Shown one piece after another: positions 25,056 to 33,202 of a stretch of DNA of 64,000 bases; within the stretch, counting starts at the first letter, position 1, and each line of letters starts with the position of its first letter. The notes under the pieces were generated by a model. That model did no database searches and was not told the DNA's origin. It saw only the letters and a list, made by a program, of their open reading frames with translations. The translations under genes and the position numbers were made by a program. This DNA is from Planctomycetota bacterium. GTDB lineage: Bacteria; Planctomycetota; Planctomycetia; Pirellulales; Pirellulaceae. The stretch is from contig VGZA01000029.1 in NCBI GenBank assembly GCA_016872775.1, positions 1 to 64,000 on the forward strand, in the 5' to 3' direction.

Positions 25056-27044
25056 TCAGGTGAACAGTTTCGATTGGTCCCGGCCTGCGATCAGTCGAAT
25101 GCCGCCATTGAGGATCATCACCGCGCCGAGCAGCACCAATGCGGCGCCCCAAGCCTGGCGATGCCAGTCATCGTAGGGACTGTTGGCGTAATTGAAGATG
25201 AACACGGGAAGCGACGGTGTATAGTCGTTCAACGTACGCGGCCAGAATGAACTGACCCCGGCGGTCAGCAGCAGCGGCGCCGATTCGCCGATGATCCGCG
25301 CCAAAGCAAGGAAGACCGCCGTAATGATGCGCGGGCCGGCGGCCGGCACCACCACGTACGCCAGAGTCTGCCATTTGCGAGCTCCCAAAGCGTAGCTCGC
25401 CTGCCGCAGGGAATCCGGCACCATCTTCAGCGCTTCCTCGGAGGCGCGCAGCACGATCGGGATCATCAGGATCGCCAACGCGCAAACACCCGCCCATCCG
25501 TACCAGCCCGGCACACCGCGCAGGGCCGTCGATGATCGGACGACGATCGCATAAGCGCAAATGCCGACGACAATCGACGGAACTCCCCCCAGCAATTCGC
25601 AGATCAGTCGCGTCCACGGGCTCAGGTACCGGTCGCGGTACTCCGCCAGATAGACAGCCGCGAACAGTCCAATCGGGACGGCGATCGATGCGGCCGCGCC
25701 GGTGAGCATCAGACTGCCCAGGATCGCGTTCGCCAATCCGCCCCCCTGCTCTCCCACCGGTTTGGGCAGCTTCAAAAAAAAGTCCAGGTTCAGGGCGGTG
25801 ACGCCTTCGCGAATCAGGTAGACGAGAATCAGGAATAACGGAGTCACCGTGACCAGAAAACTCGCCGAGAGGACCCCCGACATGATCCGATCCCGTCGTC
25901 GAGCGCGAACAGCCGCTCCTTGCAGTTCCCTTCCCGCGCGACGCGCTTCGACATCGGCGCGGCGCGGCATCGTTTGCTGCGAAGCCTCGGCCTGAGTCGT
26001 TCCCTGCGACGTTCCCTGGGGCGTGCCCGAACTGTGACCGTCGGCCGGACCCAGGGGAGAAACGCGCCGCGACGCGGGACGCGCAGCCGCGTCGGATTGA
26101 CGCATGACCCTCCGCAGCAGCGAGCGAGCGGTCAGATTAATGAGCAGCGTCACGGCGAACAGAACCAATCCCAAAGCAACTAACGAGGAAAGGTACTGGT
26201 CGTAGGTTGCTTCGGCGAATTGATTCGCGATTGCGCTGGCGATCGTGTCGCCTTTGGCAAACAGTGAAAATCGGATCGACGGACTGTTGCCAACCAGCAT
26301 CGTGACCGCCATCGTTTCGCCGACGGCCCTTCCCAGCGCAATAAAACAAGCCCCGATGATCCCCGGCCGCGCGTACGGCAGAACCACATACCAGATCGTC
26401 TGCCAGCGTGTCGCACCCAGGGCCAGGGCGCCGCCGCGTTGAGCGACCGGTACCGCTCGGCAGGCATCGGCCGAGACCGCCGTCACATAGGGTAAGACCA
26501 TGATCGCCAGGATCAGTCCCGCCGGCAGCAGTCCCACGCCTCCAAAATTCGGTCCGCCCACCAATTTGACGATCTTCTGCAGGCCCGGACCGAGTACATA
26601 CATCCCCCAGAATCCGTAGACGACGCTGGGGACGGCGGCGAGCATCTCTACAAGGAACGATCCTGGACGGCGCAGCCAACCCGGGGCGATCTCGCAGAGG
26701 TACGCCGCCGTTGCGACACCCAGGGGTACCGCCACCAGCATCGCAATCATCGACGTCACGATCGTTCCGAAGACAAATGCCATCGCGCCGAATTGCCGGT
26801 GCGACTCCTCCGGATCCCAGACGGTCGAAGTCAGGAACGACCATCCCGTGCTACGCCACGCTGTCCAGGAATTGAGGACCAGTACGACTACCAGACTCAA
26901 TGCGATCGCCGGCACGGCGGCGGCCGCCAACCAGCACAACGCGCGCGCCGCTCCATCGCCAACCCGAGCCGGCGTGAACCGGGACCAGGCCGGTGGTTGA
27001 AAGGAGCCCGATTCAGTTGTGGTAACCCGGCTCGCGAGATTCAT
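25056..27044 (-). CDS. pstC-pstA: Fused PstC-PstA phosphate ABC transporter permease
   Basis: 662 residues in one uninterrupted frame. Residues about 30-310 are PstC (FGAMAFVFGTIVTSMIAMLVAV, MLAAVPSVVYGFWGMYVLGP, the EAA-loop region ALGATRWQTIWYVVLPYA). A polar linker of about 75 residues rich in Gly, Thr, Gln and Arg follows (about 313-386). From about 388 the chain is PstA (GVLSASFLVTVTPLFLILVY, GGVPSIVVGICAYAIVV, second EAA loop ALGARKWQTLAYVVVPAA). Both halves keep their coupling helices, so one polypeptide can supply both membrane halves of the high-affinity phosphate importer. pstC and pstA are usually two genes. The start is 13 bp after the pstS stop. Confidence 0.94.
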   Translation of the reverse strand: MNLASRVTTTESGSFQPPAWSRFTPARVGDGAARALCWLAAAAVPAIALSLVVVLVLNSWTAWRSTGWSFLTSTVWDPEESHRQFGAMAFVFGTIVTSMIAMLVAVPLGVATAAYLCEIAPGWLRRPGSFLVEMLAAVPSVVYGFWGMYVLGPGLQKIVKLVGGPNFGGVGLLPAGLILAIMVLPYVTAVSADACRAVPVAQRGGALALGATRWQTIWYVVLPYARPGIIGACFIALGRAVGETMAVTMLVGNSPSIRFSLFAKGDTIASAIANQFAEATYDQYLSSLVALGLVLFAVTLLINLTARSLLRRVMRQSDAAARPASRRVSPLGPADGHSSGTPQGTSQGTTQAEASQQTMPRRADVEARRAGRELQGAAVRARRRDRIMSGVLSASFLVTVTPLFLILVYLIREGVTALNLDFFLKLPKPVGEQGGGLANAILGSLMLTGAAASIAVPIGLFAAVYLAEYRDRYLSPWTRLICELLGGVPSIVVGICAYAIVVRSSTALRGVPGWYGWAGVCALAILMIPIVLRASEEALKMVPDSLRQASYALGARKWQTLAYVVVPAAGPRIITAVFLALARIIGESAPLLLTAGVSSFWPRTLNDYTPSLPVFIFNYANSPYDDWHRQAWGAALVLLGAVMILNGGIRLIAGRDQSKLFT

Positions 27045-27057
27045 TTTCCGGTTCCTT

Positions 27058-28194
27058 TCACAACGAACCCTCCATGCGTGCGATCACCGGCTCGATTCTC
27101 TCCGCCAGCTCCCGCGGCAGTGCCGCGTAATGCAGTTCGGCGCAGTACTTTTGCCCACCGTCTTCTCGAATCGCCCATCGTAGAAAATCGGCGACCGCCT
27201 TGCCTTGCGCCCCGCCCATTCCGACATAGCTGACGCTCCAGACCGTGCCACTAATCGGGTAGGAATCGACTCCGGGTGCATTCGTCAGCGAATAGCGCAG
27301 ATCGGAGGGAATCTCGCCGATCCGGTTTCGCGCCGCGGCGGTCACGCTTTCCAGATTCGGAGTTACGAATTCGCCGGACTCGTTGCGAACCGCCGCGTAC
27401 TTCATCTTGTTCTGCAACGCGTAGGTCAATTCCACATAACCGATCGCGCCTGGATTCAGCCGCACCTGGCCCGCCACTCCCTCGTTCCCTTTCGCACCGA
27501 CAGTATCGTCGGCCCACCGGAGCGAGGTGCTCACCCCGACCGACTCCTTCCAGGAAGCGCTGACCTTCGCCAGGAAATCGGCAAAGATGTGCGTCGTGCC
27601 GCTGCCATCCGAGCGATGGACAACCACAATCTCCAGGTCGGGAAGCTTGACGCCAATTCCCGAATTCGACTCGGCAATCCGCGGATCGTTCCATTTCTTG
27701 ATCTTGCGCTGGAATATGTCCGCGATCAGTTGCCCGCTCAGTCGCAGCTGCTTGTCCACGCCTTCAAGGTTGTAGACCAGGGCCACCGCGCCCATCGCCA
27801 ACGGCACATGAACCACGTCGCCGCCGACTTTTCCCGCTTTCGCCAGCTGTTCGTCGTTCAGGGGAGCATCGCTGCAGCCAAACTCGAATTCCTTCGCGGT
27901 CATCTTCTGGATGCCTCCGCCGGAGCCGATCGACTGGTAGTTAATCTCCACACCGGCGTCTTTCTGATAGGCGCTTGCCCATTTGCTCATCAGCGGATAA
28001 ACGAACGTCGAACCGCCGGCATTCAGCCGCAATGCGCGCGGCGCCCGATCCCCGCCCGTTTCGCTTCCCGCGCCGCCGCTTACTGCCGTCGCCGCCGCCT
28101 TGCCCTGCCCAGCATTATCGCTCGCACCACAGCCGACGACCGCCAGCGCCGCCATTGCCAGACAACTTACCCGTCCACTCCATCGACGATCCAT
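27058..28194 (-). CDS. pstS: Phosphate-binding lipoprotein PstS
   Basis: 378 residues. The signal sequence ends in a lipobox, AVVGC, with Cys22 as the likely lipid anchor. The mature start LNAGGSTFVYPLMSKW and the YQSIGSGGGIQKM segment form the phosphate-binding loops of the PstS family; HRSDGSGTTHIFADFL supplies further ligands. It captures phosphate outside the cytoplasmic membrane and hands it to PstC/PstA. It is the first gene of the minus-strand arm, divergent from phoR, and thus expected to be PhoB-controlled, though a clear Pho box could not be fixed in the gap. Confidence 0.95.
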   Translation of the reverse strand: MDRRWSGRVSCLAMAALAVVGCGASDNAGQGKAAATAVSGGAGSETGGDRAPRALRLNAGGSTFVYPLMSKWASAYQKDAGVEINYQSIGSGGGIQKMTAKEFEFGCSDAPLNDEQLAKAGKVGGDVVHVPLAMGAVALVYNLEGVDKQLRLSGQLIADIFQRKIKKWNDPRIAESNSGIGVKLPDLEIVVVHRSDGSGTTHIFADFLAKVSASWKESVGVSTSLRWADDTVGAKGNEGVAGQVRLNPGAIGYVELTYALQNKMKYAAVRNESGEFVTPNLESVTAAARNRIGEIPSDLRYSLTNAPGVDSYPISGTVWSVSYVGMGGAQGKAVADFLRWAIREDGGQKYCAELHYAALPRELAERIEPVIARMEGSL

Positions 28195-28553
28195 TTTCGT
28201 TTCTCCCTTGTGTCAATTGATCTGGCTCTCATTCTCACCGAAGTCATCTTTCCCGAAAGGCGGTTCACGGAATGTGGTGCGAAACTTCTTCATTCCTTCA
28301 CAATCGTCAAGTAGCTCGAAACAGGTTTCGAGAGTCGAACGAAACGCGATACTCGTTTCGAGTCGTCGGGCGGCTCGAAACTCGAAACAGGTTTCGAGCT
28401 ACGACGCGCGACGTTCCGTTGCGGACGCCCATCCGCTACAATTTCAACGTCGGTGGTTTTGCGTACCGTATCGAGACCCAGGACTTGGTCAATTTGGCAA
28501 AGACAGATTCAAACCCGCGCCCAGGAACCAGCCCGGAGGAGCGCGGCCCTCCA
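28195..28553. repeat. Divergent pstS/phoR gap with a compact REPIN-like doublet (28311-28402)
   Basis: The gap of 359 bp must hold both promoters. Inside it GTAG (28311-28314) precedes CTCGAAACAGGTTTCGAG (28315-28332), and CTCGAAACAGGTTTCGAG (28381-28398) is followed by CTAC (28399-28402). The two palindromes are identical and face tetranucleotide-out over 92 bp, the classic layout of a REPIN. The 48-bp spacer has its own stem CGAAACG (28340-28346) with CGTTTCG (28354-28360). This is the only copy in the window that lies between 5' ends instead of at a gene end. A GGAGGA (28535-28540) precedes phoR. Confidence 0.83.
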
Positions 28554-30737
28554 ATGTTTCGTTCGCGAATTTTCTGGCGGCTGTTCGGGGTGATGATCCT
28601 GCTGTTGGCGGCGGCCTTCGCCATGCTGGGATGGCTGCTTGTATCGCGCATGGAAGCGTTCCTGCTCGAGCAGACGCGTGCCGACCTGGAAGAGCGCAGC
28701 GTTTTTCTGCTGGAATGGGTCAGCCAGGTTGAGGTTTCCCGGCTGCAGGCGGAAGTGCAACGCATTGCGCCGGCCCAAGCGGCTCGAATCACGCTGATTT
28801 CCGCCGACGGAACGGTGCTGGCCGATTCCGACGAGGATCCGTCGCAAACGGAAAATCATGCGCGGCGCGAAGAGGTCCGCCGGGCGGAGGAGGCCGGCAT
28901 CGGCGTTTCGTCCCGTTACAGCAGCACCGTCCACCGCCCGATGATGTATCTCGCGCGGCGCAACGACCAGGGGCCGGTTCGCTACGTGCGCATCGCGATT
29001 TCGCTCGAGACCGTGGCCGAGGAGGCGCGGGCGATGCGGCAGGTGGTCTGGACCGCTTGCGGGCCGACGTTTCTGGCCGCCTTGGTTGCAAGCTGGCTCA
29101 TCGCCCGCAGGATTTGCGCGCCGCTGATCGAGCTTTCCACCGCAGCCGACCGGATCGCCAGCGGCGAATTTGGCCGCAAGGTACTGGTCAGTTCGGTCGA
29201 CGAGGTCGGCGATCTCGCACGATCGTTCAACGCGATGAGCGAGGCTTGCGCGAATCAGATCGCCCAGATCGAACGGGATCACTACCAGCTGCGAGCGGTG
29301 TTCCGCAGTATGGTCGAAGGTGTGCTGGTACTTGACGTCGACCGCACGGTTCTTTTCGCCAACGACGCCGCCAGCCAACTGCTGGGTAAGCCGGTCGCGG
29401 CAATGCAAGGGGAGAAGATCTGGCAGTTGTTCCGACATCGTCAGCTTGGCGACGCGATCGAGAGGATTCTGGCGGCGGACGATCCGTACAGCTGCGATCT
29501 GGAGTGGGTCGCGGGAGAGCGCCGCGCGTTGACGTTGCAAGGGGCGCGACTGCCCGGAAGTCCCCACCGAGGCGCAGTTCTTGTATTTCACGACATTACC
29601 CACCTGCGCAAGCTGGAAACGGTCAGGCAGGACTTCGTCGCGAATGTCTCGCACGAACTGAAAACTCCGCTGGCCGTGATTCAAGCGGCGGTCGAGACGT
29701 TGCTGGACGGCGCGGTCTACGATCAGAAACATAACCTGCAGTTTCTGCGACGGATCCAACAGAGCGGAGAGCGACTGCACAGGCTCGTCCAGGATCTGCT
29801 CTCGCTGGGACGGATCGAATCGAGCGAAGCGGAACTGGACCTGAGGCCTGTTTCGCTATCGATGGCGGTCGACTCGTGCCTGAGAAGGCATGCGGATCGG
29901 GCCCATTCCAGGAAACTGCTGCTGACGGCCGCGCCGCCCGACCGGCCCGTCTTCGTGATGGCCGACGACGAGTCGTTAATGGAGATCCTTGATAACCTCG
30001 TCGATAACGCCTTGAAATACACACCCGCCGATGGCTCCGTCACCGTCGACTGGAGCGTGGACGGGGACCGGGTGGAACTGACGGTCAGCGACACCGGAGT
30101 CGGTATCCCCCCGAGCGATCTTCCACGAATTTTCGAACGGTTTTATCGCGTCGATAAGGCCCGCAGCCGCGAGCTGGGAGGGACCGGTCTGGGGCTCAGT
30201 ATCGTCAAGCATCTGGTGCAGCGGCTTGGCGGCAGTATCGCGGCAAGCAGCCAGGTCGGAGTTGGCAGCAGATTCACCGTGGTGTTGCCAGTCGCGGGAT
30301 CCGCCTTGGCGGACGCGAATCGAATACGGCACGTCGTCTTTGTCTGCGTCGAGAATTCGAATCGGAGCCAGATGGCGGAAGCGTTTGCTCGGATGCATGG
30401 TCAAGGATTGATTGGGCCGTACAGCGCCGGCTCCAAGCCGTCCGGCAAAGTGAATCCCAAGGCGATCGAAGCGATGCGCGAGGTCGGCTGCGATCTGACG
30501 ACGCACTGTTCAAAGAGTCTCGGCGAGTTGCCGAACATCGAATTCGACGTGCTCGTAACGATGGGCTGCGGCGACTCCTGCCCTAGTCTGCGTTGCCGGC
30601 AACGCGATGACTGGCAGATTCCCGACCCGCGTGATTTGGCGCCCGATGCGTTCCGCGTCGTGCGCGATCTGATTGAACGCAACGTGCAGGACTTGATCGG
30701 CCGTTTGCTCCGCCAAGACGACCACGAACCGACGTGA
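28554..30737 (+). CDS. phoR: PhoR-type sensor kinase fused to a C-terminal ArsC/LMW-phosphatase domain
   Basis: 727 residues from ATG 28554 (GGAGGA upstream). Order: membrane segment (about 8-30), extracytoplasmic sensor region, second membrane segment (about 160-182), HAMP, PAS (about 245-350), HisKA with phospho-acceptor His367 in VSHELKTPL, HATPase ([30 protein letters not shown]). Without any stop the frame continues from about 592 into a domain of about 135 residues: Cys598 in the P-loop CVENSNRSQ (C-x5-R-S), then VTMGC-GDSC with Cys672 and Cys676, then IPDPRD. These match the ArsC branch of low-molecular-weight phosphatases. It heads the plus arm with pstB, phoU and phoB, so it should phosphorylate PhoB in phosphate starvation. 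The tail's role is unknown. Confidence 0.92.
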
Positions 30738-30942: not shown

Positions 30943-31773
30943 TTGAGTGCCGTCGGATTCGCCAAGATTGTCGCCGAACGAAAATCAGCTCCCAAGCGTA
31001 CCGTCGATTCCAGCGTCGACGCCGCCAAGCTGGAAGTACGGCAACTGAACCTCTGGTATGGGGCGTCGCAGGCGCTGTTCGACGTGAGCTGCGCACTTTC
31101 CGATCGGAGTGTCACGGCACTGATTGGTCCGTCCGGGTGCGGCAAATCGACCTTTCTGCGGGCGTTCAACCGGATGAATGAACTGATCGACGGCGTCCGG
31201 CATACCGGCCAGGTTTTCGTATCTGGTGAGGAGATCCACGGCCGAGGCGTCGATGTCGTCGGCTTGAGGAAACGGGTCGGGATGGTGTTTCAGAAGTCGA
31301 ATCCGTTTCCCAAGAGCATTTACGAGAACGTGGCGTTCGGACCGCGGATGGCGGGGATGCGCAACCGCGGCAAGCTGGACGATCTGGTCGAACGATGCTT
31401 GCGCCAATCCGCGTTATGGGAGGAGCTGAAAGACCGGCTCGGCGATTCCGCACTCCATCTGTCCGGTGGTCAGCAGCAGCGGCTCTGCATTGCCCGGGCG
31501 CTGGCAACGGAACCCGAAGTGCTGCTGATGGACGAACCGGCGTCGGCGCTCGACCCGGCCTCGACGGCCAGGATCGAGGATCTGATCTATGAACTGCGGG
31601 AAAACTATGCGATTGTGATCGTGACGCACAACATGCAGCAAGCGGCGCGGATTTCCGACCAGACAGGTTTCTTTTACCAGGGACGACTGGTGGAACTTGG
31701 CCCCACCGATCGCATGTTCACGCGGCCGGAACGCCGGGAAACCGAAGACTATATTACGGGCCGCTTTGGGTAA
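30943..31773 (+). CDS. pstB: Phosphate ABC transporter ATP-binding protein
   Basis: 276 residues from a TTG start at 30943, chosen because GAGGAG stands just upstream. PstB is the ATPase of the Pst importer. Walker A GPSGCGKS is at 62-69, the Q-loop segment reads [23 protein letters not shown], the signature is LSGGQQQR, and Walker B is [12 protein letters not shown], followed by the H-loop ([13 protein letters not shown]). The [14 protein letters not shown] stretch is specific to PstB among ABC ATPases. The first 28 residues are a short extension. phoU starts 6 bp after the stop. Confidence 0.95.
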
Positions 31774-31779
31774 CAGCGC

Positions 31780-32448
31780 ATGTCGATACACTTGTCCCGC
31801 GATCTCGAGAATGTCCAGCGTCGCCTACTGTCGCTTGCCTCCGCCGTTGAGGAACTTGTCGAAAAGTCGATCCGGGCGCTGTTCGACCGGGATGCGGAAT
31901 TGGCCCGCGCGTTGATGGAGTCGGACACGTCGATTGATCTCGAGGAGACCGTGATCGAGGAGGAATGCCTGAAGATCCTGGCGTTGCACCAGCCCGTGGC
32001 GATCGACTTGCGGCGCGTGGCGACTATCGTCAAGATCAACAGCGACCTGGAGCGCATGGCCGATCTGGCGGTCAACATCGCCGAACGCGCTTTTTCGCTG
32101 GCTGAATCGCATCCGGTCGCGGTGCCCGGCACCTTCCGCAGAATGACCGACCTGACGATCACCATGGTTCGAGACAGTCTGGACGCATTCGTCAATCTGG
32201 ATGTGGCACTGGCGAAGCGTGTCTGCCGCCTGGACGACGAAGTGGATCGCTACAATCGCGAGATCATCGATCAGGTCAGCGACCTGATGAAAGCGGCTCC
32301 GGCCCAGGTCGATCCTGGTCTGCATCTGTTCTCGGCCGCTCGCCAGCTGGAACGGATCGCCGACCATGCGACGAACATCGCCGAGGACGTGGTTTACCTG
32401 GTCGAGGGAAAGATCATTCGTCACCACCCCGAGGCCCTGTCGACTTGA
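31780..32448 (+). CDS. phoU: Phosphate transport system regulator PhoU
   Basis: 222 residues, all helical, made of two three-helix repeats. The family signatures are the paired segments IDLRRVATIVKINSDLERMADLAVNIAER (about 73-101) and ARQLERIADHATNIAEDVVYLVEG (about 187-210), each carrying the metal-binding E-R-x-D/A-D motif. PhoU links Pst to PhoR and keeps the kinase quiet when phosphate is plentiful. Its place between pstB and phoB, 6 bp after pstB, is the expected one. Confidence 0.95.
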   Translation: MSIHLSRDLENVQRRLLSLASAVEELVEKSIRALFDRDAELARALMESDTSIDLEETVIEEECLKILALHQPVAIDLRRVATIVKINSDLERMADLAVNIAERAFSLAESHPVAVPGTFRRMTDLTITMVRDSLDAFVNLDVALAKRVCRLDDEVDRYNREIIDQVSDLMKAAPAQVDPGLHLFSAARQLERIADHATNIAEDVVYLVEGKIIRHHPEALST

Positions 32449-32506
32449 CCCGCGCCGGCGACCGCCCCGCAACTGCCGCGAAATTTTCACTCCCAGCCGC
32501 ATTACG

Positions 32507-33202
32507 ATGGCCCAAGACAAGATCCTGATCATCGAAGATGAGACGTCGCTCGTCGAATTGCTGACGTACAACCTGGAGCGCGAAGGTTACAAAGTGATTT
32601 CGGCGACCGACGGCCACGAAGGCCTGCGCAAGGCACAGACCCACTCTCCCGATCTGCTGATCCTCGACCTGATGCTTCCCGGCATGAGCGGCCTGGATGT
32701 CTGTCGGGAACTGCGTTCCTCAACCCGAACCGCGGCAATCCTGATCCTGATGCTCACGGCCAAGGAGGAAGAGGTTGATCAGGTCGTCGGCTTCGCCATG
32801 GGAGCGGACGACTACGTGACCAAACCGTTCAGTGTCAAAGTGCTGCTGCAGCGGATCAAGGTACTGCTGCGGCGTTCGCGCGGAAACACAGCGACGAGCG
32901 AGATTCTGGAGGTCGCAGGAATTCGCATCGACAAGCGAGCGCATGAGGTCTCGATCGGCGACTCGCCGTTGTCCCTGACACCGACGGAATTCCGCTTGCT
33001 CGAAACGATGATCAAACAGCCGGGCCGCGCATTCACTCGCTACGATCTGATGGACGCGACGGTGGGAGATACGATCGTTCTGGAACGCACGATCGACGTG
33101 CATATCAAGTCGCTACGGCGAAAACTGGGTGACCTCGGGCATCGGATCGAGACGGTTCGCGGTGTAGGCTACCGATTTCGCGAGGAAACGGAGACCGATT
33201 AG
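32507..33202 (+). CDS. phoB: PhoB-type response regulator
   Basis: 231 residues from ATG 32507. The receiver domain has the acidic pair Glu10-Asp11, the phospho-acceptor Asp54 (LLILDLMLPG), a Thr in LMLTAKEEE and Lys in YVTKPFS. The C-terminal half is an OmpR/PhoB winged helix (LTPTEFRLLETMIKQPGRAFTR, TIDVHIKSLRRKLG, ETVRGVGYRF). As the last gene of phoR-pstB-phoU-phoB it should be the partner of PhoR and activate both divergent arms. The distance of 58 bp from phoU leaves room for a second promoter. Confidence 0.94.
   Translation: MAQDKILIIEDETSLVELLTYNLEREGYKVISATDGHEGLRKAQTHSPDLLILDLMLPGMSGLDVCRELRSSTRTAAILILMLTAKEEEVDQVVGFAMGADDYVTKPFSVKVLLQRIKVLLRRSRGNTATSEILEVAGIRIDKRAHEVSIGDSPLSLTPTEFRLLETMIKQPGRAFTRYDLMDATVGDTIVLERTIDVHIKSLRRKLGDLGHRIETVRGVGYRFREETETD

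Follow-up and report, generated by a model that had tools for sequence, protein, structure and literature searches.

We report that a Pirellulaceae bacterium encodes a PhoR-type histidine kinase which runs on, in one intact reading frame, into a C-terminal ArsC domain, and that this protein combines known parts in a new way. The gene lies in the window, by which we mean the whole stretch of DNA analysed here: 64,000 nucleotides, positions 1-64,000 on the forward strand of contig VGZA01000029.1 (Planctomycetota bacterium, assembly GCA_016872775.1). An initial annotation, made from the DNA letters, had proposed the fusion; the frame indeed translates without a stop through all 727 residues, and Cys598, Arg604, Ser605, Cys672 and Cys676 are located where it had placed them (Table 1). 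Its assignment of the two halves to PhoR and to an ArsC with all catalytic residues is borne out at the level of sequence.

Table 1. Features of the phoR-arsC locus, in window positions, with profile scores and curated cut-offs.
Feature	Positions	Strand	Description
pstC-pstA, divergent	25056-27044	-	single permease of 662 aa; halves matching TIGR02138 (422.8 bits) and TIGR00974 (406.3 bits)
pstS, divergent	27058-28194	-	TIGR00975 329.2 bits, cut-off 205
phoR-arsC fusion gene	28554-30737	+	727 aa; single open frame, stop-free; 11 Pfam families matched
PhoR-type histidine kinase part, residues 1-581	28554-30296	+	membrane segments (by eye), HAMP, PAS, HisKA (H367), HATPase_c
Linker, residues 582-590 (about 9 residues)	30297-30323	+	between HATPase_c and ArsC parts
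ArsC (LMWPc) domain	30324-30737	+	Cys598, Arg604, Ser605, Cys672, Cys676; extra Cys646, Cys652, Cys681
pstB	30943-31773	+	TIGR00972 385.4 bits, cut-off 343.2
phoU	31780-32448	+	TIGR02135 204.2 bits, cut-off 130.25
phoB (mechanical ORF)	32366-33202	+	TIGR02154 250.4 bits, under cut-off 296.2; Response_reg, Trans_reg_C

The kinase half has the full architecture of a PhoR/PnpS protein: membrane segments recognised by eye, then HAMP (residues 182-231), PAS (245-348), HisKA (358-423), with H367 in its SHELKTPL motif, and an HATPase_c domain (471-581) that is complete, covering positions 2-110 of the 111 in the Pfam profile and ending at residue 581. Amongst NCBIfam models it comes nearest to PnpS, WalK and PhoR, none of whose curated cut-offs it reaches, the shortfall being narrow for PnpS (383.7 bits against 400) and phoR_proteo (301.8 against 334.2). 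It shares domain order, H-box, PAS domain and a pstB/phoU/phoB neighbourhood with the PhoR/PnpS kinases, and differs from them in its additional C-terminal ArsC domain and in scores that fall just short; the 29 best PhoR matches in the family end 0-16 residues past the HATPase match. The next-best kinase match in the same genome is only 34% identical (over residues 245-598), so the fusion kinase is this genome's only clear PhoR. As the initial annotation had stated, the gene heads a phoR-pstB-phoU-phoB cluster, with all three downstream genes matched by Pfam and NCBIfam. The receiver domain of the mechanical phoB ORF begins near residue 50, and the true start therefore probably lies after the phoU stop.

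At the 5' end, the mechanical ORF of the fusion opens upstream at 28272 (821 aa), and the ATG at 28554 leads into a first membrane segment that looks normal by eye. Short CGAAACAGGTTTCGAG-type repeats were noticed by eye just 5' of phoR, at 28318-28400, and a scan for promoters and terminators gave nothing useful. At the junction, whatever the frame, stops come no closer than 30155 on one side and 30409 on the other. Where the ArsC domain begins there is no ATG or GTG start; codon 585 is a TTG. The initial annotation had considered a stop or frameshift hidden between codons about 580 and 592: no frame holds a stop from 30156 to 30408, and for the same reason an indel error at the junction would not reveal a PhoR stop. 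Third-position GC is alike on the two sides (0.755 vs 0.737). Directly after the linker, Ile591 is encoded by ATA (30324-30326), a rare codon here (5 of 177 isoleucine codons in eight ORFs of the window); at the equivalent site ATG or GTG is found in 44 of 97 homologous loci, another codon in 52, and one locus gave no match to the motif. It is possible that this ATA is the worn-down start codon of a formerly separate arsC.

The fused domain looks like an arsenate reductase and not like a tyrosine phosphatase, judging from its motifs, profile scores and predicted fold. It matches Pfam LMWPc over residues 594-714 (profile 1-143 of 144; 65.4 bits, cut-off 23.2), one of four LMWPc matches in the genome. 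Low-molecular-weight protein tyrosine phosphatases carry an RSP P-loop and a DPY-type acid loop; the present P-loop is CX5RSQ, as in ArsC rows, the acid loop reads DPRD, and the Wzb profile gives 21.3 bits (cut-off 243) vs 87.0 for an ArsC profile. The curated ArsC cut-offs are themselves clearly missed (TIGR02689, 87.0 against 157.6; NF010053, 67.7 against 215; TIGR02691, 64.6 against 174.3). An AlphaFold2 model of residues 575-727 (pLDDT 84.4, pTM 0.80) has the LMW-PTP/ArsC fold, as a prediction, and Foldseek matches 1-17 to it are all arsenate reductases, with phosphatases intermixed from rank 18. The domain aligns without a gap to Cg_ArsC1' (PDB 3t38; query 3-124 on chain 83-204), C598, C672 and C676 falling on C88, C162 and C166, the catalytic cysteines of that enzyme according to PMC6514093. 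The three are thus identically spaced; unlike Cg_ArsC1', the present domain is fused to a kinase, has three extra cysteines and is 26% identical in the Foldseek alignment, where 3t38 ranks only 22nd, with YwlE (18) and one tyrosine phosphatase (21) ahead of it. A CX5R P-loop is accompanied by the second and third catalytic cysteines of a thioredoxin-coupled ArsC. The second cysteine pair of the initial annotation, Cys672 and Cys676, is present, but with the CX3C spacing seen in Cg_ArsC1', and the cysteines of the domain number six in all.

Conservation was read from 101 homologues, a small number of which are themselves joined to other proteins; the tree had 103 rows once three duplicates were dropped, and L178 was also dropped for this comparison. 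Cys598 is common to 98 of the 101, with a gap in the other three, whilst Arg604, Ser605, Cys672 and Cys676 occur in every one. Of the columns with at least 90% conservation the fused domain keeps 48 of 50, of those with at least 95% 41 of 43, and of those with at least 98% all 30, at an identity of 53-68% to its aligned relatives, which suggests that selection has acted on it. In a leave-one-out comparison at the 95% columns only 12 of the 101 rows score lower, making the domain somewhat less conserved than most homologues. At each of the two positions where it departs from the 90% columns, it has a cysteine. Homologues hold three cysteines in 84 cases, four in 14, five in one and two in two; C681 is found in none of them and C646 in one, and Cys652 aligns with Thr63 of the S. 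aureus enzyme, which lies near the active site. These three extra cysteines suggest something more than a plain enzyme. A recent duplication of the genome's own arsC was considered as the source and is not supported: the free copy (L158) sits elsewhere in the tree than the fused domain, whose modestly supported (85/81) neighbours are L099 and L194.

The fusion was seen only in its own genome, amongst the 241 family genomes and the order and phylum samples searched. Queried with the ArsC domain, 111 of the 241 gave matches at 1e-12, and close free copies (54-66% identity) number 17 in 16 family genomes, this one included; none of the 12 other listed family ArsC frames of at least 250 aa contains a kinase. 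With the whole protein as query against 149 family genomes, no other kinase-starting match among those listed passes residue 623. ArsC matches occur in 53 of 296 genomes of the order sample (at 1e-30) and in 209 of 392 of the phylum sample (at 1e-20), with no kinase in either of the 2 other order frames or in any of the 14 other listed phylum frames of at least 400 aa. In all, 20 loci whose ArsC frames are long and another 35 loci were examined, and none gave a kinase hit. Beyond the phylum, the search covered plasmids and 80 named loci, the best 80 of 576 relatives from a scan of genome contigs: none of the 80 has a kinase match within its ArsC frame, and no plasmid record among the best 5000 covers 80% of the protein. 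Tandem phoR-arsC genes were also looked for in relatives whose PhoR match runs beyond the kinase end, and not found in the four that were read: G055, G042, G096 and G142 have no ArsC match at 1e-3 (a weak hit in G142 stands at 0.026). G033 and further relatives, whose ends extend as far as 609, were outside this reading. Absence from relatives had been offered in the initial annotation as grounds for refutation; the fusion is indeed absent from the other genomes searched, which makes it rare, not false.

ArsC itself is a ready fusion partner. Pfam checks found Acr3-like transporter-ArsC (L149), ArsR-ArsC (L153) and MIP-ArsC (L079, L194) proteins, an ArsC joined to a methyltransferase resembling ArsM (L187:2336-3976, G718:C47), and ArsC-NadC (quinolinate phosphoribosyltransferase) in four family genomes (Pfam-checked in L176 and L195; by resemblance in L177 and L196). 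At least one other case joins ArsC to a signalling protein: in L186:1530-3401 (G595:C10), Pfam finds an N-terminal ArsC followed by a PAS domain, a sigma-54 activator domain and a Fis-type HTH, and the protein is likely to be an arsenate- or redox-linked transcription regulator. By eye, a 386-aa frame in L070 (G089:C13) begins with a MIP-channel-like part and runs into a canonical ArsC; in the genome of the fusion, L001:1459-2619 (G000:C53) joins Sua5/YrdC to a phosphatase-type LMWPc with an RSP P-loop.

Such partnerships have precedents. ArsC is noted as a fusion partner, ArsR-ArsC included, in PMC6205960, and Acr3-ArsC and ArsR-ArsC proteins are known from that paper and from PMC6514093; like L149 and L153 they tie ArsC to another arsenic-handling protein, whereas PhoR belongs to phosphate control and not to the ars set. 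The Salinispora aquaglyceroporin-ArsC fusion (Wu et al. 2010, as cited in PMC6205960) likewise ties ArsC to a membrane protein handling arsenic, but its partner is an exit channel, and here it is a phosphate sensor. In arsenic islands, ars and pst/pho genes adjoin as separate genes, as described in the available portion of PMC3834237, in which the terms phoR and fusion are absent; the adjacency is shared with the present locus, where arsC is part of a fused gene. The initial annotation knew of no described PhoR of this type, and no title or abstract start among the papers listed in a literature search describes a PhoR-ArsC or other kinase-ArsC protein; subscription papers and preprints lay outside this search, and a description elsewhere is possible.

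The genomic surroundings of the relatives place ArsC in both arsenic and phosphate settings. Within five ORFs (called by a simple longest-first rule, with neighbours clustered by single-linkage blastp), the 80 named loci have a MIP channel in 32 cases, ArsR in 21, ArsM in 15 and Acr3 in 14, and at least one of these in 50; of one representative per cluster, the ArsM, Acr3 and ArsR types score above curated cut-offs and the MIP type below. At least one arsenic-type neighbour is found at 8 of the 17 family loci, a count that overlaps with the former, three family loci repeating the ArsC sequence of named ones. In the genome of the fusion, the free arsC directly follows a MIP gene (MIP-arsC, C44), ArsM is matched at 70% identity and no Acr3 was found. 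Moreover, arsC lies near or inside pst/pho operons at six of the 80 loci: pstS-MIP-arsC-pstC-pstA-pstB-phoU-phoB-kinase in L095 (3613-11346), pstC-arsC-pstA-pstB-phoU in L122, permease-pstB-phoU-arsC in L114, a cluster in L110 which, as in L095, includes a MIP gene, and linkage to pst genes at a distance of about 0.7 kb in L083 and about 3.4 kb in L112. These six come from several phyla and need 4 changes on the tree, at least 2 of them forced by well supported branches, so that the linkage is not of one origin; by rough reasoning, a chance rate below one in 80 would be expected. The link to phosphate uptake drawn in the initial annotation holds up. Eight further candidates were set aside: in the Bacteroidota loci L089, L093, L113 and L143 the PstB-like hits are on the opposite strand and are read as another ABC ATPase, one resembling the LolD sort, and L075, L080, L096 and L153 offer only PhoB-like, kinase or PstB-like hits.

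How might the two halves work together? Under phosphate limitation the Pst importer opens and would let in arsenate alongside phosphate. PhoU is reported to bridge PhoR and PstB in E. coli and Salmonella (PMC9239213 and PMC4423584), so that the ArsC extension of PhoR would lie beside the importer's inner face, where this cytoplasmic C-terminal domain could meet arsenate at its point of entry. Cys598 would attack arsenate, arsenite would be released via a Cys598-Cys672-Cys676 disulfide relay, and thioredoxin would reset the enzyme; arsenite could then either exit via the MIP channel whose gene adjoins the free arsC or be methylated by ArsM. The benefit of the fusion would be that reductase and importer are produced together and placed together. 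We give an even chance to this proposal, in which the arsenate reductase is tethered to the Pst-PhoU-PhoR complex and produced along with the importer through which arsenate comes in.

Detoxification at the Pst gate, one of three functions suggested in the initial annotation, is the best supported of them, given the retained catalytic residues, the predicted ArsC fold, the pst and ars neighbours of relatives noted above, and a MIP-ArsC fusion described as bifunctional in PMC6205960. Against it stand the missed ArsC cut-offs, the low Foldseek rank of Cg_ArsC1', a conservation below that of most homologues, the extra cysteines, the restriction to one genome and the lack of Acr3. Sensor kinases are usually scarce and hence poorly suited to detoxification in bulk, and the genome's free arsC could already serve bulk reduction. 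These last two points sit more easily with a reading in which the ArsC domain feeds a signal into the kinase: arsenate turnover or bound arsenite would alter its thiol state, and through it the kinase or phosphatase output of PhoR, so that Pst expression would be adjusted as arsenate flows in. We entertain this main rival tentatively, as a possibility. The six cysteines, more than in any homologue, and the two conserved-column changes to cysteine speak for it, as do a linker so short that the domain abuts the ATP-binding domain, the regulator L186, and the existence of ArsR-ArsC fusions (L153; PMC6205960). A pure sensor, on the other hand, would not need all its catalytic residues. Kinase input domains are usually N-terminal, and this one is C-terminal. 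That PhoR-ArsC tells arsenate from phosphate, its reductase domain with the three added cysteines reporting arsenate turnover or bound arsenite to the adjoining kinase so that the Pho response is lowered or reshaped while arsenate is coming in through the Pst gate, we regard as rather unlikely.

Could the fusion instead be a fixed accident, its domain an ordinary reductase or idle and the joining itself of no benefit? Its presence in a single genome amongst those searched and the many fusions of ArsC elsewhere (to Acr3, MIP, ArsR, methyltransferase and NadC) would fit, but most conserved columns are kept, a PhoR in a pst/pho operon is a functionally apt partner, and pst-arsC neighbours recur in several phyla; we think such an accident improbable. 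A protein phosphatase acting on PhoB or another partner, also suggested initially, is disfavoured and in our judgement very unlikely: the superfamily (PF01451) is shared with the low-molecular-weight tyrosine phosphatases, whose folds appear from rank 18, yet P-loop, profiles and top fold matches are of the arsenate reductase type, whilst the phosphatase-like paralogue on C53 has RSP. Finally, the sequence comes from a single draft assembly of 141 contigs, the sole genome of its genus compared, and two genes might have been joined by assembly or sequencing error; with a junction free of stops in all frames, no ATG or GTG at the domain start and third-position GC matching across it, we find this scarcely credible.

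Phosphate shortage obliges bacteria to open a high-affinity importer which also takes in arsenate. In the gene described here, the sensor responsible for opening that importer is physically linked to the enzyme that would disarm arsenate. If this domain is active, detoxification or arsenate sensing would be built into the phosphate-starvation switch itself, and PhoR-ArsC would offer a single protein for testing how cells distinguish arsenate from phosphate.
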